A DNA stretch of 48,626 nucleotides from Thiomonas intermedia (GTDB lineage: Bacteria; Pseudomonadota; Gammaproteobacteria; Burkholderiales; Burkholderiaceae_C): positions 1-48,626 of the forward strand of contig DZDA01000008.1 in assembly GCA_022730375.1 (NCBI GenBank), in the 5' to 3' direction. Position numbers and translations under genes: made by a program. The first letter of the stretch is position 1. The number at the start of each line of letters is the position of its first letter. The notes under the pieces are model-generated. The model was not told the DNA's origin. It worked only from the letters and a program-made list of their open reading frames with translations, and ran no database searches. Below, piece after piece: positions 16,514 to 48,626 of this stretch.

Positions 16514-17332
16514 TCAGTCTTTCCTCCCCGCGAGTTGCGGTGTCTTGTTCGTTGTCTTGTTCATGCCCGGCAGATCCACACCTTGCAGATGCACGGCGAA
16601 ACCGTTGGGATAGCGCAGATCGACACTGTCGATGGACCGCCCATAGCGGGCTTCGAGCTGTGGCAACAGGGTCATGAACTGTTTGAGGCGGGTCTGCGTC
16701 GCCGCGCTGTCGGGCGCACTGCCCAGGTCGATGCGCAGGCCAGAGCGGGTCTGCACGCTCCAGTTGCCGCCGCTGCCTTGCGCCAGGGTGGCGACGGTCT
16801 GATGAAATTCCTGCATCAAGGGCTGCAAGGTCTGGCTCATCTGCAAGACCTGCGCGCTGGTTCCCACCGGGCCACTGAACTGCGGCAGACCCAGCCCCTG
16901 GACTTCGCCGAGGTTGGCGGTGAACGCCTGCCCCTGCGCGTTGACCAGTTGCGGCGCGCTGCCCGGCTCGCGCCAGATGGCCACCGGCTGCTGCGCCTGC
17001 AGCGTGACGGCCAGTTGCATCGGCCACAGCCGCTGCACCACAGCGGTACGCACCCACGGCAGGCTCTCGAACACTCTCTGCGCCTGCACAAGATTGATGG
17101 TGAGGAAATTGCCCCGCAATTGCGGCAAGGCCTCGGCCCGCACCGTCACCGGGCTGATGCGCTGCAGGTCGCCCTGAAGCCGCACTGCGCGGATGTCCCA
17201 CCAGTTGCGCTGCATCAGCCAGTGCCCGGCGACGAACAGGCAGCCAAGCGCCACCAGCCAGAACAGGGCACGCGAGGTGCCTTGCATCAGGCGGATGTCG
17301 AGCGGGAGTTCGCGCGGGGCGTAGCTGCTCAT
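16514..17332 (-). CDS. ftsQ: Cell division protein FtsQ
   Basis: A bitopic division protein that links early and late divisome proteins through FtsB and FtsL. The 272-residue product has a short cytoplasmic tail, one transmembrane helix (about 21-42, [15 protein letters not shown]), a POTRA domain beginning [18 protein letters not shown] and a beta domain. The start overlaps the ddl stop (ATGA). Its ribosome-binding site AGGAG (17343-17339) directly abuts the stem of a repeat hairpin in the end of ddl, which could affect translation. Confidence 0.94.
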
Positions 17333-18387
17333 CGGTCGCTCCTCCCGCCGCCGCCGGGCCGCCCCAAGGCGGCGGGCGCCCCCTCGGGGGGCAGCGCAGG
17401 CGAAGCCGCAGCGTGGGGGTCAACAGCCTTATGCGGTTGATCGAGCGCCGCCATGCTGAGGATGAGCAGGCACAGATCGGCGTATTCCAGCCCGGCCACG
17501 CGCGCGGCCATGGGCACCAGCGAATGCGAGGTCATGCCGGGCGAGGTGTTGATCTCCAGCAGGAAGGGCTGGCGGTCGGTCGCGCGAATCATGACGTCGG
17601 CCCGCGCCCAGCCGCGGCAGCCCAGCGTGCGATAGCTGCGCAAGACCAGATCCTGAATGCGCGCTTCTTCGTCGGCAGGCAATTCGCTTGGGCAGATATA
17701 GCGGGTGTCGTCGCTGAAATACTTGTGTTCGTAGTCGTAGTTGCCGCCGGGGGCGACGATGCGGATGAGCGGCAGCGCCCGCGCCTGATCGCCCGCGCCG
17801 ATCACCGCGCAGGTCACTTCGTCGCCCTCGATGAACTGCTCCACCAGCACCCGGCTGTCGAAGCGTGCGGCTTCGAGATAGGCGGCTTGCACTTCGGCCT
17901 CGCTGTCGGCGCGCTTGAGACCCAGCGTGGAGCCTTCATGCGTAGCCTTGAAAATCAGCGGAAAGCCCAGATCGGCCGCAGCCGCTCGGGCCTCGATGAG
18001 CGTGCCCACCTCGCGCCATTTGGGTGTGGACAGGTTCTCAAAATGCCACAGCCGCTTGGTCATGACCTTGTCGATCGCCAGGGCCGAGGCCAGCACGCCC
18101 GGCCCGGTGTAGGGAATGCCGAGCAGTTCCAGCGCGCCCTGCACCGTTCCGTCCTCCCCCCAGCGGCCATGCAGATTGATGAACGCGCGCTGCGCGCCAA
18201 ACGACTTGAGCGCAGCCAGGTCGTCCACCGACGGATCGAAAGCAAAGGCATCGACCCCGCGCGACTGCAGCGCCGCCAGCACGCCCTTGCCCGACATCAG
18301 CGACACCTCGCGCTCGGCGGAAAGCCCGCCCATGAGCACCGCGACGCGGCCCAGACCGCGCGGATCGATCTGGGGCCATGTCGTCAT
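17329..18387 (-). CDS. ddl: D-alanine--D-alanine ligase, with a repeat-encoded C-terminal tail
   Basis: Makes the D-Ala-D-Ala dipeptide for the peptidoglycan stem. The 352-residue ATP-grasp protein has [26 protein letters not shown], the ATP-grasp segment [11 protein letters not shown] and [13 protein letters not shown] with the metal-binding N. Family proteins normally end near [12 protein letters not shown]; here about 35 further residues ([12 protein letters not shown]...GRPGGGG) are encoded by the repeat at 17344-17421. This tail is unlikely to be catalytic. The start overlaps the murC stop (ATGA). Confidence 0.95.
17344..17421 (+). repeat. Constant-loop/variable-stem repeat, copy 1 (end of ddl)
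   Basis: CCCGCCGCC (17344-17352) pairs perfectly with GGCGGCGGG (17368-17376) around a 15-nt loop, GCCGGGCCGCCCCAA. A CCCCC-TC-GGGGG hairpin follows, then a GC-rich tail ending TGGGGGTC. The loop is shared with copies at 20914, 22855 and 48575, while the stem sequence differs. It lies in frame in the 3' end of ddl and directly next to the ftsQ ribosome-binding site. Confidence 0.85.
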
Positions 18388-19802
18388 TTCGCGTCTCCCT
18401 CAGTGCCGCCCGCCAGCGCTGCCACTTGAGCGGCCACGACGCCGATGGAACCTGCCCCCATGCAGATCAGCACGTCGCCCTCGCGCGCCATCTCCAGAAT
18501 GGCTTGCGGCATATCGGCCACGGCTTCGACGAACACCGGCTCGGTCTTGCCAGCCACGCGCACCGCACGCGCCAGGCTGCGGCCGTCAGCCGCCACCAGC
18601 GGGGCTTCACCGGCGGCGTACACCTCGGCCAGCAGCACCGCGTCGGCATCGCCGAGCACTTTCACAAAATCTTCAAACAGATCGCGGGTGCGGGTGTAGC
18701 GATGCGGCTGGAAGGCGAGCACCAGCCGCCGCCCCGGAAAGGCGCCGCGGGCCGCCGCCAGCGTGGCGGCCATTTCAACCGGATGGTGGCCGTAATCGTC
18801 GATCAGGGTGAAGCGCCCGCCGTGGCGAGCCGCCACTTCGCCATAGCGCTGGAAGCGCCGCCCCACGCCGGTAAACCCGGCCAGCGCCCGCTGGATGGCG
18901 GCGTCGTCCACGTTCAGTTCGGTGGCCACGGCGATGGCCGCCAGCGCGTTCTGCACGTTGTGCCGCCCCGGCAGGTTCAGCGTGACGGACAGCGGCGGCA
19001 GTTGCACGCCGTTGCGACGCAGCACGGTGAAGTGCATCTGCGCGCCCTCGGCCCGCACGTCGATGGCGCGCACCTGCGCGTCTTCGGCGAAGCCGTAGCT
19101 GGTGATGGGCTTGGAAACAAACGGCATGATGCCGCGCACCGCAGCGTCGTCCACGCACAGCACCGCGGCGCCATAGAACGGCAGCCGGGCGATGAAATCG
19201 ACGAAGGCATGGCGCAACCGGGCCGGGTCGTGGCCGTAGGTGTCCATGTGGTCGGCGTCGATATTGGTGACCACGGCCATGACCGGCAGCAGGTTGAGGA
19301 AAGAGGCGTCGGATTCGTCGGCCTCGACCACGATGTACTCGCCCTGCCCGAGCTTGGCATTGACCCCGGCGCTGTTGAGCCTGCCGCCGATCACGAAGGT
19401 CGGATCGAGCCCGCCCTCGGCCAGCACGCTGGCGACCAGACTGGTGGTGGTGGTCTTGCCATGCGTACCCGCAATCGCAATGCCGCGCTTCAGGCGCATC
19501 AACTCGGCCAGCATGACCGCGCGCGGCACCACCGGAATGTGGCGCGCACGCGCTGCGAGCACCTCGGGGTTGTCGGCACGCACGGCGGTGGAAATGACCA
19601 CGGCATCGGCATCCTGCACTTGAGCCGCGTCGTGCCCGATGGCCACGCGCAGGCCCAGCTCGCGCAGTCGGCGCACGGTGGCGCTCTCGTTCAGATCCGA
19701 GCCGCTGATGGCATAGCCCAGGTTGTGCAGCACCTCGGCGATACCGCTCATGCCGGCGCCGCCTATGCCGACGAAATGAATTTTGCGAATGGCGTGTTTC
19801 AT
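18384..19802 (-). CDS. murC: UDP-N-acetylmuramate--L-alanine ligase MurC
   Basis: Adds L-alanine to UDP-MurNAc, the first amino acid of the stem peptide. The 472-residue protein has the N-terminal Rossmann motif [15 protein letters not shown], the ATP loop GTHGKTT (112-118), DESDASFL, and [13 protein letters not shown] and DDYGHHP in the central and C-terminal domains. It overlaps murG upstream and ddl downstream by four bases each (ATGA), so translation of the three is probably coupled. Confidence 0.97.
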
Positions 19803-21001
19803 CGCCCCTGCCCTTGCCTTCCTGTTCCTTGCCTCGTTTCGCGCCCAGGCAGCAGGGCGTTGCAGCCCTCTACGACAGCCTGCACCGCATCGGGCCGCGC
19901 CAGGCCGCGTGCGGCCTGCGCCAGTTGCAGCAGGCGCGGGCGGTCCAGGCTTTGCAGCAGCTCGGCCAGCCCCTGCGCGCTCAGGTCGCGTTGTTGAATC
20001 AGCAGCGCCGCATCGCGGCCTGCGAGAAATTGCGCGTTCACCGTCTGGTGGTCATCGACCGCATGAGGAAACGGCACGAACAGCGCCGCCACACCGGCGC
20101 AGGCCACTTCGGTCACGGTCGAGGCGCCGGCGCGGCAGATCACCAGATCGGCCTGCGCATAAGCCGCGGCCATGTCGTCGATGAAAGCCACGCAGTCGGC
20201 TTGCACACCGGCGTCGGCATAGGCCTGCTGCAGGGTCGGCAGATGCTTGGCCCCGCTCTGATGACGCACCTGCGGGCGTTCGCCCGCGGGCAAAAGCGCC
20301 AGCGCCTGCGGCGCCAGCGAGTTGAGCGCCTGCGCGCCCAGACTGCCGCCGACCACGAGCACCTGCAGCGGCCCGCTGCGACCGGCGTAGCGCTGCTCGG
20401 GCGAAGGCAAGGCGCAGATTTCCGCACGCACCGGATTGCCCACCCACTGCGCACCCGGCAGCACCTCGGGAAACGCGGTGTAGCTGCGGTCGGCCAGACG
20501 CGCAAGCACCTTGTTGGCCAGACCGGCAACGGCGTTCTGCTCATGCACCACCAGCTTGGCCCCAGCCCACACGCTCATCAAGCCGCCGGGAAAGGCGATA
20601 TAGCCGCCCATGCTCACCACCACATCGGCGCTAACGCGCCGCAAGCCGCGCAAAGCCTGCCAGAAGGCGCGCAGCAGGTTGAGCGGCAGCAGCAGTTTGG
20701 TCAGCAGCCCTTTGCCGCGCAGACCGCCGAAGCGCACCCAAAGCATGTCGAAACCGTGGCGCGGCGCGAGCTGCGCCTCCATGCCGGTGGGCGCGCCCAT
20801 CCAGTGCACCGTCCATCCGGCGGCGCGCAGCCCCTCGCCCACGGCAATGCCCGGAAAGATGTGGCCGCCGGTGCCTCCGGCCATGATGACAGCGACCGGG
20901 GCGCCAGCCGCAGGGAACAAGGCGCCGGGCCGTCCCAAGCCTTGTTCCGCCCCCTGGAGGGGGAGCGTCGCATCGCGGCGATCTCGGGGGGAGCTTGTCA
21001 T
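19799..21001 (-). CDS. murG: Lipid II synthase MurG, with a repeat-encoded N-terminal extension
   Basis: A peripheral membrane glycosyltransferase that adds GlcNAc to lipid I. The glycine loop GGTGGH lies at residues 42-47, later than the usual position near 15. The first 30 or so residues (RDRRDATL...[13 protein letters not shown]) are encoded by the repeat at 20914-20993. Other family motifs are normal: [10 protein letters not shown] and [11 protein letters not shown] near the nucleotide-binding site. I keep ATG 21001 because it overlaps the ftsW stop (ATGA); an internal start after the repeat is not obvious. Confidence 0.95.
20914..20993 (+). repeat. Constant-loop/variable-stem repeat, copy 2 (start of murG)
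   Basis: GGAACAAGGC (20914-20923) pairs perfectly with GCCTTGTTCC (20939-20948) around the loop GCCGGGCCGTCCCAA, one base different from copies 1 and 3. CCCCCT-GG-AGGGGG follows, then CGCGGCGATCTCGGGGGG. Compared with copy 3, several stem positions differ on both arms so that pairing is kept. It lies in frame just after the murG start codon. Confidence 0.85.
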
Positions 21002-22248
21002 ACATGCCCTCCGCGCATCAGAACCCGGTTTTCGAAATCAACGCGCAGCAGCACGGCAATGGCCATGCAGTTGAGCAGCAGCGCCGAGCCGCCGTAGCTC
21101 ATCAGCGGCAGCGTCAGCCCCTTGGTGGGCAACAGACCGAGGTTCACGCCGATATTGATGAAAGCCTGCCCGCCGATCCACACGCCGATGCCCTGCCCCA
21201 CCAGGGCGCTGTACATGCGGTCAAGCACCAGCGCCTGTCGGCCGATGTCGAAGGCGCGGCGCACGATCCAGTAGAACGCGAAGATCACCACGCCGACGCC
21301 CACCAGGCCCAGCTCCTCGCCGATGATGGCCAGCAGAAAGTCGGTGTGCGCTTCCGGCAGGTAATGCAGTTTTTCGATGCTGCCGCCGAGGCCGACGCCG
21401 AACCACTCGCCGCGCCCCATCGCAATCAGCGCGTGCGAGAGCTGATAGGCGCTGCCCAGCGCATTCGATTCCGACCAGGGGTTGAGATAGGCGAAGATGC
21501 GATCACGCCGCCAGGGCGAGAGCACGATCATCAACACAAAAGCGCCGATCACGGCCACGCTGAACACCGAAAACAGCTTGCCGTTGGCCCCGCCGAGAAA
21601 CAGGATGGCCAGCGTGATGGAAGCGATGACCAGAAAGGCGCCCATGTCGGGCTCGGCCAGCAGCAGCACGCCCACGATCATCATCACCGCCATCATCGGC
21701 AGGAAGGTCTTGAGCAGGCTTTGCTTGACCTCCTGCTTGCGCACCATGAAATCGGCGGCATAGATGAGCGCGGTGAGCTTGACCAGCTCGGAGGGCTGGA
21801 AGTTCAGCCCGCCGGGGAAGACCACCCAGCGCTTGGAGCCATTCACATCCTTGCCGATATGCGGCAGCAGCACGAGCACCAGCCCGATCAGCGAGAGGAA
21901 GAAAAAGCGCATCGACCATTTCTGCAGCTCGGCCATCGGAATCTGCACCACGATCCAGCTCGCCAGCAACGCCGCAGCGATGGAAAACAAATCACGCGCG
22001 AAATAGTGATAGGGCGACCACTGCGCGTAGCGCACCGAGTCGTGGAAGGAAATCGTGGCCGAATACACCATCACCAGGCCGTAGGCCAGCAGCAGCAGCG
22101 TGACCCAGACCAGGTTCTGGTCGTACTCCAGCATGCGCGAATTGCGCGGCGCCATATGCCCCACGCGCACCGGCAGATCGGCCGCGGCCTGGTCGCGCTT
22201 GCGGCCGAGGAAATTGCGACTGAGGAAAGGCAGCATGCGCTCAAGCAT
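20998..22248 (-). CDS. ftsW: Lipid II polymerase/division protein FtsW (SEDS family)
   Basis: A polytopic membrane glycosyltransferase that polymerises septal peptidoglycan together with FtsI. The 416-residue protein has about ten hydrophobic helices and the SEDS sequences [35 protein letters not shown] and, near the C-terminus, [21 protein letters not shown]. The start at ATG 22248 overlaps the end of murD by 8 bases; longer frames upstream lie inside murD and have no family similarity. Confidence 0.96.
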
Positions 22249-23785
22249 GGTCGGCCCCTTCGTTCCAGACTTGTCCGCGCTGCTCTGCCAGATTGCGCAC
22301 CGCAGCGACAAACACCTCGGCGCGATGCGCGTAGTTGCGGAACATGTCCAGACTGGCGCAAGCGGGTGACAACAGCGCCGCATCGCCGGTCTTTGCCAGC
22401 GTGGCGGCGCGTTGCACAGCCTGCTCCAGGGACTGCGTGAATTCGGTGGGGGCCAGCCCCTGCAGCTCCGCGGCGATGGCCTGCGCATCGCGGCCGATCA
22501 GCACCGCAGCGCGCAGCCGCGCAGCCTGCGCGCGCAGCGGCGAAAAATCCTGCCCCTTGCCGTCACCCCCGGCGATCAGCACCACCGGCGTCTCCATGCC
22601 CGCCAGCGCCGCCACCGTGGCGCCGACGTTGGTGCCCTTGCTGTCGTCGATCCAGCGCACGCCGTCGATCACCGCCACGGTCTGCATGCGATGCGGCTCT
22701 CCGCGATACTCACGCAGGGCATGCAGCATGGGCGCAAGCGGCGCGCCCACGGCATCTCCCAGAGCCAGCGCGGCGAGCGCGTTGGAAAGGTTGTGCGCGC
22801 CCTGAATGCGCAGGGCTTCGGTGGGCATCAAGCGCTGCATCTGGAGCGCGGCCTCGGGCAAGGCGCCGGGCCGCCCCAAGCCTTGCCCGGCCCCCTGGGG
22901 GGAGATCGCCGCACCGCGGCGATTTCGGGGGGGGTCTTCTGCCGGAAGTGCGCGCGCCAGCCAGTCGATGCCGCCTTCGCGCACCACGCCCCAGTCTCCC
23001 GGCTGTTGCGGCGCCGAGAGACCAAAACGCCGCAACTTGCGCCCCGGGCGTTGCATGGCCAGCACCTGCGGATCGTCGCGGTTGAGCACCATGACCCCCT
23101 GCGCGCCCTGATTCCCGAAGATGTTGGCCTTGTCGGCGGCATAGGCCGTCATGTCGCCGTGCCAGTCGAGATGGTCCTGGGTGATGTTGAGCACGGTGGC
23201 CGCGTCGGCGGCGAAGTCGGTCATGCCATGAAGCTGGAAGCTGGAGAGTTCGAGCACCCAGGCTGCGGGAAGATCGTCGGCCTGAAGCCGGGCCTGCAGC
23301 ACGTCGAGCATGGACGGCGAAATATTGCCCGCCACCGCCACGCTCCAGCCCGCGCGCTCCAGCATCAGCCCGGTCAGACGGGTGACGGTGGTCTTGCCGT
23401 TGGTGCCGGTGATGGCGACGATCTTGGGCGCATAGCCTCGCTCTTCGCGCAGCGCGTCGAGCGCCCACTGCAACAGATGCAGCTCACCGGCCATCGGCAC
23501 GCCCCGTTCGGCGGCCGCCTGTTTGAGTGCGGCAAACTCGGTCGCGTGCGGTGCAATGCCGGGGCTGCGCAACACCAGTTGCGCGTCGCCCAGTAGATCT
23601 GCGCCCAGGTTGCCGCAATGCACCTGTGCCGCAGGCACTTCGCGCTGCAGCGCAGCCAGCCCGGGCGGCGCACTGCGGCTGTCGGCCACGCGCACCTGCG
23701 CGCCTTGCGCCGCACACCAGCGCGCCATTGCCAGGCCGGATTCGCCCAGGCCGAGCACGAGAACGGAGAGTGAGTTCAGGTTCAT
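22241..23785 (-). CDS. murD: UDP-N-acetylmuramoylalanine--D-glutamate ligase MurD, with a repeat-encoded internal insertion
   Basis: Adds D-glutamate to UDP-MurNAc-L-Ala. The 514-residue protein is longer than the roughly 440 of E. coli. It has [13 protein letters not shown] at the N-terminus, the ATP loop GTNGKTT (127-133), [10 protein letters not shown] and [14 protein letters not shown], then [11 protein letters not shown] and [10 protein letters not shown]. Residues about 284-312 (PRNRRGAA...[13 protein letters not shown]) are encoded by the repeat at 22855-22936. They fall just before the IQGAHN segment of the ATP-binding domain, probably in a surface loop. The gene overlaps mraY by four bases. 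Confidence 0.95.
22855..22936 (+). repeat. Constant-loop/variable-stem repeat, copy 3 (inside murD)
   Basis: CGGGCAAGGC (22855-22864) pairs perfectly with GCCTTGCCCG (22880-22889) around GCCGGGCCGCCCCAA. CCCCC-TG-GGGGG follows, then ATCGCCG-CACCG-CGGCGAT and a G run. The length keeps the murD frame open, and the encoded peptide resembles that of copy 2 in murG. Confidence 0.85.
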
Positions 23786-24960
23786 CGCAGCTTCAGACTC
23801 GCCAGACCCACCAGACAGAGAATCATGGTGACGATCCAGAACCGCACCACCACCTGCGACTCTTTCACCCCGAGTTGCTCAAAGTGATGGTGCAGCGGCG
23901 CCATCTTGAAAATGCGCCGTCCCACGCCGTACTTCTTCTTGGTGTACTTGAAGTACGTCACCTGAATCATCACCGACACGGTTTCGGCGACGAACACCCC
24001 GCCCATGATGGCCAGCACGATTTCCTGGCGCACGATCACGGCGATGGTGCCTAGAGCGCCGCCCAGCGCCAGCGCGCCCACGTCCCCCATGAACACCTGC
24101 GCCGGATAGGCGTTGAACCAGAGAAACGCCAGCCCGGCGCCGACCATCGCGCCCACGAAAATGAGCAACTCCCCCGTTCCCGGAATGAAGGGGAACAGCA
24201 GGTATTTGGAATACACCGCATTGCCGGTGACGTAGGCAAACACGCCCAGCGAGCTGCCGACCATGACCACGGGCATGATGGCCAGGCCATCGGCGCCGTC
24301 GGTGAGGTTGACCGCGTTGCTGCTGCCCACGATGACCAGATAGCTCAGCACGATGAAGCCGGTCACCCCCAGCGGATAACTGACCGATTTGAAGAACGGC
24401 ACGATGAGGTCTGAAGCGGGGGGCAAGGGCATGCTCATGCCGCTTTGCAACCACGCCACGAACAGATGCCAGACCTCGGCGTTGCCCTTGCCCGACACGG
24501 CGAAAGCCAGGTAGAACGCGGCGGCCACGCCGATGAGCGTCTGCCAGAAGTACTTGTCGCGCGAGCGCATGCCGTTGGGGTCGCGGTACACCACCTTGCG
24601 GTAATCGTCGGCCCAGCCGATGGCGCCGAAACCGAGCGTGACCAGCAGCACCAGCCAGACGAAGCGGTTGCTCAGATCCATCCACAGCAAGGTGGACGCG
24701 CCGATGGACAGCAGGATGAGCACCCCGCCCATGGTGGGCGTGCCGGTCTTGATGAGATGAGTCTGCGGCCCGTCCTGACGCACCGCCTGGCCGACCTTCA
24801 TCGCGGTGAGCTTGCGGATGACTGCGGGGCCCGCGAGCAGACCGATGAACAGCGCGGTGAGCGTGCTCATCACCGCGCGGAAGGTGATGTAGTTGAACAC
24901 CCGGAAAAAGCGCAGATCGGGCGAGATCTCCATCAGCCACATGGCCAGACTATGCAGCAT
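23782..24960 (-). CDS. mraY: Phospho-N-acetylmuramoyl-pentapeptide transferase MraY
   Basis: An integral membrane enzyme that makes lipid I from UDP-MurNAc-pentapeptide and undecaprenyl phosphate. The 392-residue protein has about ten hydrophobic segments and the family motifs [14 protein letters not shown] (catalytic aspartates), [25 protein letters not shown] and the HHHFE loop ([10 protein letters not shown]). I start at ATG 24960 ([13 protein letters not shown]), overlapping the murEF end by 11 bases; the longer frame upstream is within murEF. Confidence 0.97.
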
Positions 24961-27877
24961 GGTGCACCTCCTGCGGGGACGCGCCATTGCCGTTCGCCGC
25001 CAGCGCGGCGATGGCCTGCACCGCGCGCTCCATGCGCATGAAGCGCGAGCCTTTGACCAGCACGGTGTCGAATTCGCGCAGCGCTGCGGCATCCAGAGTG
25101 AAGTCCATCAGGTCGGGCTGATGCCGCGCGGCCGCCAGGCCCGCCGCCTGTGCGGCCGCGACCGCCTGCGCCGTCATGGCGCCGCAGGCCCACAGCGCCG
25201 CCACGTCGCGCTGCGCCGCATACGCCCCCACTTCGGCATGGAATGCCGGGCCGTTGTCACCGACTTCGCCCATGTCGCCGAGCAGCAGAAGGCTGCGCCC
25301 GGGCAGCTCGGTCAACACGTCAATGGCTGCGCGCACCGAGTCGGGATTGGCGTTGTAGCTGTCGTCGATCAGCAGCAGCGTGCGCTCGTCGGCGCAACGC
25401 AGACGCCGCGGAACCAAACGCCCGGCCACCGGCGCGAACGTCTCCAGTCCACGGCAGATCGCATCCAGCGGAGCGCCCGCGGCCAAGGCCGCCGCAGTCG
25501 CCGCCAGAGCATTGCGCGCGTTATGCCGCCCCAGCAGTTGCAGGCCCACTTCGGCATGACCCGCTGGGGTATGCAATTGCAGACGCAACTGGCCTTGCCG
25601 GTAAAACGCATGGCCGCTGACTTCAGCTTCCACGCCCGCCTCAGCCTCTTCGCGCAGGGCAAAGCGCAACACACGCCGACCGGCGGCTTGCGCCACCCAG
25701 ATCGCGGTCTGGGCGTCGCCTGCGGGAAACACCGCCACCCCGGTCTGCGGCAACGCCGCGAGCACGGCGCCGTTTTCGTGCGCGACTGCTTCGACGCTGT
25801 GCATGAATTCCTGATGTTCGCGCTGGGCGTTGTTCACCAGCGCCACGGTGGGCTCGGCCAGACTGGCGAGCCAGGCGATCTCGCCCGGATGGTTCATCCC
25901 GAGCTCGACCACGGCGGCCTGATGTTGCGGCCGCAAGCGCAGCAAGGTCAGCGGCAGACCCACCTCGTTGTTGAAGTTGCCCTGCGTCGCCAGACGCCGG
26001 TCCTCGCCCTGCCACGCCGCCAGAATGGACGCCAGCATCTGCGTCACCGTGGTCTTGCCGTTGCTGCCGGTCACCGCGATCAGCGGCAGCGCCTGTTGCC
26101 GCCGCCAGCCTCGCGCCAACAGGCCCAATGCGCGCAGGGTGTCGGGCGCCTCGATGCCGGGCAGCCCGGAAGCGGCCACGCCTTGCTCGGCCAGCAGCGC
26201 GCGCGCGCCAGCAGCCGCAGCTTGCGGCAGAAAGTCGTGCGCGTCGAAGCGGGCGCCGCGCAAGGCGACGAACAGCGCGCCCGGCGTGAGTTTGCGACTG
26301 TCGGTCTCGATGGCGCTCACCGCCACGTCGGCCTCGCCGATAAGGCGGGCGTCAGGCCCGATCCAGTCGCGCAGTTCGCGCAAGGTACAAAGCCCGGCGC
26401 CGCACGCGGCCAGTGCCATGCGGGCATGGAAAGCGTCGCTGAAGGCCTGCTTGTGTCCGGCAATCTCCTGCGTGTTTTCGTGCCCCTTGCCCGCGATGAG
26501 CACGACGTCGTGCACCGCGGCGTGCGACAGGGTCTGGGCGATGGCGGCGGCACGGTCTTCGATCAGCAGGGCTTGCGCGGGTTGCTGCAGACCGGCGAGC
26601 AGATCTTGCAGGACTGCGCCCGGCGCTTCGCTGCGCGGGTTGTCGCTGGTCAGCACCACGCGGTCGGCGTGGGCCTCGGCGGCCTGCGCCATCAGCGGGC
26701 GCTTGCGCGTATCGCGGTCGCCGCCGGCGCCGAACACGCACCACAACTTGCCTTTACGCTTGGCGGTGACAGGCCGCAGCGCGCGCAGCGCCTTGTCCAG
26801 CGCGTCGGGGGTGTGGGCGTAGTCGATCACCGCCAGCGGCGCGCCGATGCCGCCCAGCATCTGCATGCGACCCGGCACGGCGCGCACCGTGCGCAATGCG
26901 CCGACAATGGCTGCGTCGTCCAGCCCCGTGGTGTGCAGCAGCGCGGCGACCACCAGCAGATTGCGCAGGTTGAAAGCGCCCAGCACGGGCAGATCGAGCG
27001 CGTGGCGATGGTGGTGATGCACCAGAGTGAGACGCTGGCCGGTGGAAGCCTGCACCACATCTTCCGCACACCAGTCGGCCTTGGCGATCAGCGCGGTGGT
27101 CTGCACCTGCAGCGCCCCGCTGCGGCAATCGGCGAGCAAGACGCTTGCGGCGTAGGGGTCGTCAATATCCAGTACGGCATGCTGCAGGCCCGGCCAGGCG
27201 AACAGCGCCCGCTTGGCGCGCGCATAGGCCGCCATGTCGCCGTGGTAGTCGAGATGGTCTTGCGTCAGATTGGTGAATGCGGCAGCATGAATTGCGCAAC
27301 CCGCCAGCCGATGTTCGTCCAGGCCGATGCTCGATGCCTCGATGGCGCACCAGAGCGCGCCTTGCTCGCGCAGCCGCGCCAGGATCGCCTGCAGCCGCAC
27401 CGGGTCGGGGGTGGTGAAGCCGGTGGGCTGCAGCGCGTCCGGCCATCCAGCGCCCAGCGTGCCGATCACCCCGCAGCGCTGCCCAGCCGCGTTCAGGGCC
27501 TGCGCTGCCCACAGGGCGCAGGAAGTCTTGCCATTGGTGCCGGTCACGGCCAGCAGCTTGACGGCCTCGGACGGATGTCCATACCAGGCCGCCGCAAGCG
27601 GCCCGGCCAGCGCCTTGAGCCCGTCAACGGTCAGAATGCGCGGATCGGTGAAGCCGAAATGCTGCGCGCCCTCAACCTCGACCAGCGCGGCCGCTGCCCC
27701 CGCGGCCAAGGCCTGCGCCACGAACTGACGCGGATCGCGCGCCGCCCCCGGCCAGGCGACGAACACCTCGCCGGGCTGCAGGCTGCGACTGTCGGCGGTA
27801 CACGGCGCATCGGCGGCGACGCCCAAGGCGCGCAACGCTTGCAGTACGGCATCGACCGTCTTCAAAGTCACATTCAT
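24950..27877 (-). CDS. murEF: Fused MurE-MurF ligase (bifunctional)
   Basis: A single 975-residue frame joins two ligases. Residues 1 to about 490 are MurE: ATP loop TGTNGKT (112-118), [10 protein letters not shown], and DNPR (412-415), the motif that selects meso-diaminopimelate, followed by GKGHE. Residues from about 495 are Mur[20 protein letters not shown] loop GSNGKTT (604-610), GMNHPGEI and DDSYNANP. MurE adds meso-DAP and MurF adds D-Ala-D-Ala. No frameshift sign is visible. Such fusions are known in Bordetella and related betaproteobacteria. It overlaps ftsI by four bases. Confidence 0.96.
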
Positions 27878-48538: not shown

Positions 48539-48626
48539 GTGCCCGATTCAGCCCCAGCCGCCCCCCACACCCTCATGAGAAAACGCAGGGCCGCCCCAAG
48601 TTTTCTCATCCCCCTCGGGGGGCCTG
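48539..48626 (+). CDS. Possible start of the next gene, cut by window edge
   Basis: A frame opens at GTG 48539 (VPDSAPAAPHTLMRKRR) and stays open to the edge for 29 codons. No clear ribosome-binding site and no family can be recognised. If real, it would contain repeat copy 4 in frame, as ddl, murD and murG do. Confidence 0.25.
   Translation, partial: MPDSAPAAPHTLMRKRRAAPSFLIPLGGP
48575..48626 (+). repeat. Constant-loop/variable-stem repeat, copy 4 (truncated by window edge)
   Basis: ATGAGAAAAC (48575-48584) pairs perfectly with GTTTTCTCAT (48600-48609) around the loop GCAGGGCCGCCCCAA, one base different from copies 1 and 3. CCCCC-TC-GGGGG follows. The AT-rich stem shares almost nothing with the stems of the other copies. 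Confidence 0.85.

Follow-up and report, generated by a model that had tools for sequence, protein, structure and literature searches.

What is a shared peptide doing in two enzymes of one pathway? The question is raised by a 48,626-base stretch of the Thiomonas intermedia genome (contig G000:C58, hereafter the window), whose minus strand holds a division and cell-wall cluster in which MurG and MurD carry closely similar inserts. Both of these cell-wall enzymes are essential in other bacteria. An original prediction, made from the letters of the window, held that the peptides had been acquired from a DNA repeat, that they sit at tolerant sites, and that they might be neutral or provide a shared interaction surface. 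We compared the window genome with 12 congeneric Thiomonas genomes (13 in all, labelled G000 for the own genome to G012; loci bear L-numbers). The first two parts of that interpretation are supported and the shared surface is not: the peptides are very probably tolerated by-products of a dispersed palindromic element whose behaviour resembles that of the Rickettsia palindromic elements (RPE), and not a surface common to the two proteins.

A repeat shared by murG and murD

The features concerned are the following.

19799..21001, minus strand: murG, 400 residues; its ATG overlaps the ftsW stop (ATGA); Pfam PF03033 and PF04101
20918..20991, minus strand: element copy inside murG, encoding residues ~4-28, predicted disordered
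22241..23785, minus strand: murD, 514 residues; sole match in the 83%-complete assembly
22859..22932, minus strand: element copy inside murD, encoding residues ~285-309, between predicted strands 273-280 and 315-321
17329..18387, minus strand: ddlB, whose end LDQPHRSVSR (as in G001, G002 and G008) is replaced in the window by an element-encoded tail
17345..17418 (approximate limits), minus strand: element copy within the C-terminal tail of DdlB, near where ddlB and ftsQ overlap; core 17352-17368
48541..48626 (approximate limits), minus strand: fourth element copy, with one core mismatch; core 48584-48600

A repeat search of the window recovers the murG and murD copies as a 74-nt pair, 86% identical and in the same orientation, and both are translated on the minus strand as PRxRRxA... 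in a common frame. The peptide just after the start of MurG is thus encoded by a repeat copy, as had been proposed, and its counterpart in MurD, previously placed at residues 284-312, is confirmed with slightly narrower limits. What had been numbered repeat copy 1 is most likely the copy in the DdlB tail. When up to three mismatches are allowed, the core of the element matches the window six times, two of these with three mismatches; shuffled windows gave 1.7 matches on average and 5 at most, and six were reached in 0 of 100 shuffles.

Within its own genome, the best match of the murG copy is the murD copy (86%, E 2.8e-19), and the next one is far weaker (E 2.4e-4). The two are 86-93% alike over at least 73 nt, and no other fetched exact-core copy, among the matches listed, exceeds 82% local identity to them. 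The murG and murD copies belong to one subfamily of a much larger dispersed repeat. The nearest named relative of this MurG is that of Thiomonas bhubaneswarensis (86%).

Distribution of the element

The element is GC-rich, palindromic and hairpin-forming, spans ~80 nt, and is dispersed in the genomes that carry it. We searched for its exact core, CTTGGGRCGGCCCGGCG, in 80 genomes including our own, 48 of them from the same family and 32 from elsewhere in the order Burkholderiales. At least one core was present in 44 of the 80, namely 41 of the family and 3 of the others; the core written backwards matched three times in total over the searched genomes. Copy numbers within the genus are highest in G010 (103), G007 and G011 (63 each); other counts are 53 in G000, 32 in G005, 25 in G006, 19 in G003, and 12 in G012. 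Several subfamilies are visible among the copies, and the ends of the element are not fixed, empty and filled sites being too diverged to define them. Identity with a described RNA family was rejected: the window's sole Rfam matches at gathering score are RNase P and two tRNAs, and five further loci have none. Literature searches, at listing level and covering few subscription papers, returned no description of the element; the terms Burkholder- and Thiomonas are absent from PMC12306157, and these together with Acidovorax are absent from PMC3733652. We also observed that several G000 contigs start or stop within ~50 bases of an element core.

Outside Thiomonas, the MurD of two Acidovorax (L022, L043) and of one Comamonadaceae (L060) has an in-frame copy at a third site, with the same architecture and the loop variant TTCGGGCGGCCGGGC, and L060 has a weaker relative of the element at the N-terminus of MurG. 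The MurD of a Hydrogenophaga (L077) bears an exact-core copy in the same loop as Thiomonas. Since its orientation is opposite, it is an independent insertion.

In-frame copies in conserved proteins

We examined 174 distinct copies: 47 of the 53 in G000, all 25 in G006, all 32 in G005, 46 of 63 in G011, 17 of 103 in G010, and seven from the mur clusters of G001, G003, and G007. Thirty-five of them lie in open reading frames (ORFs) with a coding signal in one frame on both sides of the copy, according to a 180-nt coding test, itself a weak one, which classified correctly 434 of the 505 windows from the ORFs used to train it. These 35 copies correspond to 34 ORFs, of which 14 (15 copies) were left off the list of 22 sites that we compiled by hand. 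Eleven of the 14 have no Pfam hit and look like shadow ORFs (L271, L295, L133, L197, L242, L279, L284, L322, L326, L335, L338); L127 has a weak hit below the cut-off, and L190 and L330 have hits only after the element.

The 22 listed sites are in MurG, MurD (2), MurF, NeuB, nonribosomal peptide synthetases (2), HemD, HrpA, RecD, RecB, CheA (2), YhdP, TilS, ComEC, a fatty-acid desaturase, a biotin carboxylase, a solute-binding protein, TamB (2), and a P-type ATPase. At 17 of them, Pfam domains extend across the insert or lie on both sides of it, counting YhdP, whose domain before the insert (DUF748) is below its cut-off, and HemD and the desaturase, for which two Pfam stretches were reported and one was printed, after the insert, the other being taken to lie before it. 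The five sites lacking two-sided support are MurG, which was listed by comparison with its orthologues, the N-terminus of the P-type ATPase, both TamB sites, and one condensation site of a peptide synthetase. One CheA (L142), the solute-binding protein (L235), and RecB (L199) came from a looser screen, and the second TamB site is a core variant outside the 174 copies. In the NeuB-family protein of G006 (L291:921-2228:-), a two-contig genome, the insert falls within the very stretch matched by the NeuB domain. Some sites are in-frame tandem arrays. All five arrays flagged within ORFs have a spacing that is a multiple of three, but this is a weak test, as the same holds for 11 of 17 others, some of them coding.

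That same-family peptides occur in unrelated proteins, read from either strand and in several registers, bears directly on the possibility that the shared peptide is a selected interaction surface linking MurD, MurG, and perhaps others. That the peptide is common to two enzymes of one pathway speaks for such a surface; its presence in proteins as different as those listed above speaks against it.

The frame shared by MurG and MurD has a more general counterpart. One codon register, defined by the same codon boundaries on either strand, is used at 17 of the 22 sites and at 14 of the 17 with Pfam support, where stop-free copies lead one to expect 33% (P 2.5e-5, or 7.4e-5 when corrected for the choice among three registers; the MurG and MurD sites are not fully independent). 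As the bias is genome-wide, the frame common to the two enzymes is part of it. Stop codons were rejected as its cause by the counts of open frames among 137 copies outside candidate ORFs (s0 99, s1 88, s2 82, a0 101, a1 86, a2 74). The composition of the peptides does differ between registers: the favoured one encodes 10.6 and 13.4% Arg/Lys and 1.9 and 1.5% Trp/Cys, and every other frame is high in one of these or intermediate in both (Arg/Lys and Trp/Cys, respectively: s0 22.7 and 4.1%, a0 22.6 and 1.5%, s2 13.3 and 8.3%, a2 15.6 and 3.4%).

Empty, single, tandem, and nested alleles

The MurG start could be read in 12 of the 13 genomes, the MurD loop in 12, and DdlB in 11; a search without positive control found no readable MurG start or MurD in G002. 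A full element is present in MurG in six of 12 genomes (G000, G003, G006, G007, G010, G011). G008 retains a clear remnant and G012 a possible remnant, and the element is absent from G001, G004, G005, and G009. The element is in tandem in G010 (two copies) and in G007, where several copies surround a 100-N assembly gap through which the frame of the array is unreadable.

These alleles bear on whether the murG copy is translated. MurG could instead start inside or after the repeat, which would then be merely intergenic: the end of the repeat offers an in-frame TTG, and a Variovorax (L037) has a similar element before a plausible ATG. However, the overlap of the murG ATG with the ftsW stop is retained with or without the insert, and the distance from this ATG to the AGGTGG codons, which varies widely (33, 45, 69, 72, 120, 123 or 210 nt), is a multiple of three in all 11 gap-free genomes. 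A later start would also have no bearing on MurD, where the copy is internal, and we regard it as very unlikely.

The MurD loop contains the element in four of 12 genomes, once in G000, G006, and G010 and twice in tandem in G003; in the remaining eight, a native linker of about the same length takes its place. A second MurD site is occupied by another subfamily in G001 and by a short remnant-like stretch in G011. The murD of G010 is split between contigs G010:C393 and G010:C72, whose ends overlap. In MurF of G003 there are two units, of which the second is degenerate. DdlB ends in an element-encoded tail in six of 11 genomes (G000, G005, G006, G007, G010, G011) and is short in the other five, and its frame runs to the ATGA overlap with ftsQ in all 11. 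In G006, G007, and G010 (L112, L113, L114), the element of the DdlB tail in turn contains a second, different repeat, nested in frame and encoding a peptide like IPTPALPTSGEGANTPPPRRGGGWEGEKP.

On a tree of six gene segments, the MurG insert is most simply old in the genus and has been lost in places. The MurD insert appears patchy: G007 lacks it though it is the sister of G006 (support 90). Over the same segments G007 is 95.4% identical to G000, so that the peptide can be missing between close relatives, and elsewhere it is duplicated, shortened or lost, which is difficult to reconcile with an interaction surface. Empty alleles of both genes thus exist within Thiomonas, and acquisition from a DNA repeat is supported. 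We rejected an ancient protein feature; among the homologues compared, we did not find a peptide common to all and free of the repeat.

An error of assembly or binning is an extremely unlikely source of the inserts. The window does come from a genome in 139 contigs, and a contig break falls within murD of G010, but the same MurG and MurD inserts are found in G006, which like G005 is a two-contig genome rated 100% complete, and whose larger contig measures 3.74 Mb.

Structure and constraint

The inserts are predicted to be disordered. AlphaFold2 assigns a confidence (pLDDT) of 42-56 to the first 30 residues of MurG, and of 56-74 to residues 281-310 of MurD, which have no secondary structure; elsewhere in both proteins, only the C-terminal ends have block means below 70. 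The MurG of E. coli (1f0k) aligns with that of the window from residue 38, and the MurD insert sits in a beta-hairpin loop, where the best-matching solved chains (8dp2, 7sy9) have no residues. These models agree with the proposal that the sites are tolerant, and predicted disorder is a further argument against an interaction surface.

Divergence of MurG between six genomes (15 pairs) separates the insert from the rest of the protein. Pooled silent divergence (pS) is 0.091 in the insert and 0.324 in the rest, about 3.5-fold lower, and amino-acid divergence (pN) is not lower (0.071 and 0.047), giving pN/pS of 0.78 and 0.14. The insert has the lower pS in 14 of 15 pairs, and the higher pN also in 14 of 15. 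Taken with the absence or reduction of the peptide in several congeners, this makes a selected interaction surface highly improbable, despite the strong conservation of the MurD copy from G000 to G003.

The hairpin, on the other hand, covaries. Across ten stem positions in 160 distinct copies, 78.6% of pairs are Watson-Crick, against 35% (maximum 40%) when partners are shuffled between copies; the 34 copies inside candidate ORFs give 80.3%. Each stem position shows all four Watson-Crick pair types, the outermost positions pairing less, and the copies have their loop in common, with a stem sequence that is almost free. The covarying stem of ~9 bp is accompanied by further hairpins, and a CCCC-GGGG hairpin lies just 5' of the main one in 122 of 151 distinct copies. 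Within the MurG stem, species differ in having A-T or G-C at the same pair, mismatched and G-T intermediates also occur, and these changes alter the residues encoded by both arms. Low silent divergence, amino-acid divergence that is not lower, and covarying stems therefore suggest that both the sequence and its hairpin are preserved as DNA or refreshed by copying; constraint or homogenisation seems to act on the DNA rather than on the peptide. One possible cause is template switching, which is reported elsewhere to restore stems (PMC8794818).

Several points weigh against this reading and against that of a tolerated by-product. The shuffled-partner control takes no account of subfamilies. The pooled pN/pS values come from 15 non-independent pairs over 24 codons, with G007 represented by the upstream unit of its array, and the silent divergence of the insert is not lower in the pair G000-G006. 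Low silent divergence could reflect recent origin or conversion instead of constraint. The MurD elements of G003 and G000 share 97% identity, against 72-83% for their flanks, which fits maintenance at the DNA level, yet selection on the peptide could act there also. The insert peptides are predictions read from DNA. Finally, no mobiliser was identified when we sought one in Thiomonas and in the set of 80 genomes.

Comparison with known systems

One candidate for a mobiliser was a RAYT (Y1) transposase, which would make the element a REP/REPIN-type sequence. Like REP/REPIN-RAYT systems, these are short abundant hairpins, with RAYT in some genomes. RAYT-like genes, each in single copy with an open frame of 285-297 residues, are present in G007, G010, G012, G011, and G003 (L210, L212-L215), and the three highest copy numbers of the genus (G010, G007, G011) are all among carriers; the Y1 gene of G004 is shorter (open frame of 151 residues) and of a different kind. 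However, our search detected no RAYT-like gene in G005 (32 copies), in G006 (25 copies) or in the incomplete assembly of G000 (53 copies). Around the five genes we retrieved ~1.5 kb of flanking sequence (0.8 kb on one side for G011) and found it free of core-like copies, and in the genomes and gene flanks examined, there was no RAYT gene bordered by repeats. Beyond Thiomonas, a related gene occurs in seven genomes of the family that lack an exact core, and the reverse, cores without such a gene, is seen in G068 and G069. In the set of 80 genomes, the gene is no predictor of the element, and a clear RAYT link was rejected. The element is also longer and has several hairpins, and we consider mobilisation by RAYT unlikely. 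In the copy listing, examined by eye, no consistent GTAG foot was seen.

The closest analogue, by description rather than by comparison of sequences, appears to be the RPE. These are palindromes scattered between and inside genes and present in frame in many conserved ones, and one RPE-bearing enzyme that was tested, guanylate kinase, is still active with a changed substrate affinity (PMC2229807; PMC10969869). The Thiomonas element is likewise palindromic and dispersed between and inside genes, with in-frame copies in conserved protein genes beside copies elsewhere. It differs in length (~80 nt, against 105-150 nt as given for RPE), in bacterial group, in its almost free stem and fixed loop, and in its in-frame tandem and nested arrays. 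ERIC, YPAL/RU-2, and RU-3 of enterobacteria are also described as small mobile repeats that form in-frame gene fusions (PMC2229807), but they measure 103-168 bp and occur in other bacteria, and this likeness too is one of description and not of compared sequences. The coding palindromes of Nematomorpha mitochondria are inverted repeats kept inside coding sequence, whose arms encode conserved native protein, unlike the added peptide encoded here (PMC6649704).

A probable path from selfish DNA to linkers

The reading that we favour, a palindromic element tolerated in proteins, would work as follows. An element of the Burkholderiaceae resides mostly outside the listed in-frame sites, and a copy that enters a gene without bringing in a stop, and whose length is a multiple of three, would be kept as a predicted translated, disordered linker. 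Insertion in murG would have come first, and the murD copy, from the same subfamily, may have been copied nearby or passed between lineages. Copies would amplify in tandem and decay by in-frame deletion, producing variable linkers, and the peptides would be tolerated and not selected for function. Mobility, gene conversion, template switching, and selection are candidates for the upkeep of the DNA sequence and its hairpin.

A bolder version, which we put forward tentatively as a possibility, is that of a translation-tolerant parasite, whose hairpin would be actively maintained even inside essential genes and whose favoured register, low in Arg/Lys and Trp/Cys, would therefore encode benign linkers. 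If this is true, the turnover of copies would be a main source of linker-length change in the proteins of this bacterial family.

The passage of in-frame selfish DNA into protein is a known but rarely described route, found here in a new bacterial group. In-frame palindromic repeats are best known from the obligate intracellular Rickettsia and Wolbachia, where the usual explanation is weak selection; Thiomonas and its relatives are free-living. Empty, single, tandem, nested, and decayed alleles in one genus form a series for the study of selfish DNA becoming protein, and allow constraint on DNA to be told apart from constraint on peptide. Where such peptides occur in proteins of this family, they come from repeats, and it would be a mistake to take them for conserved motifs.

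In the same cluster, at 24950-27877 on the minus strand of the window, murE and murF look by eye like one fused ORF of 975 residues.

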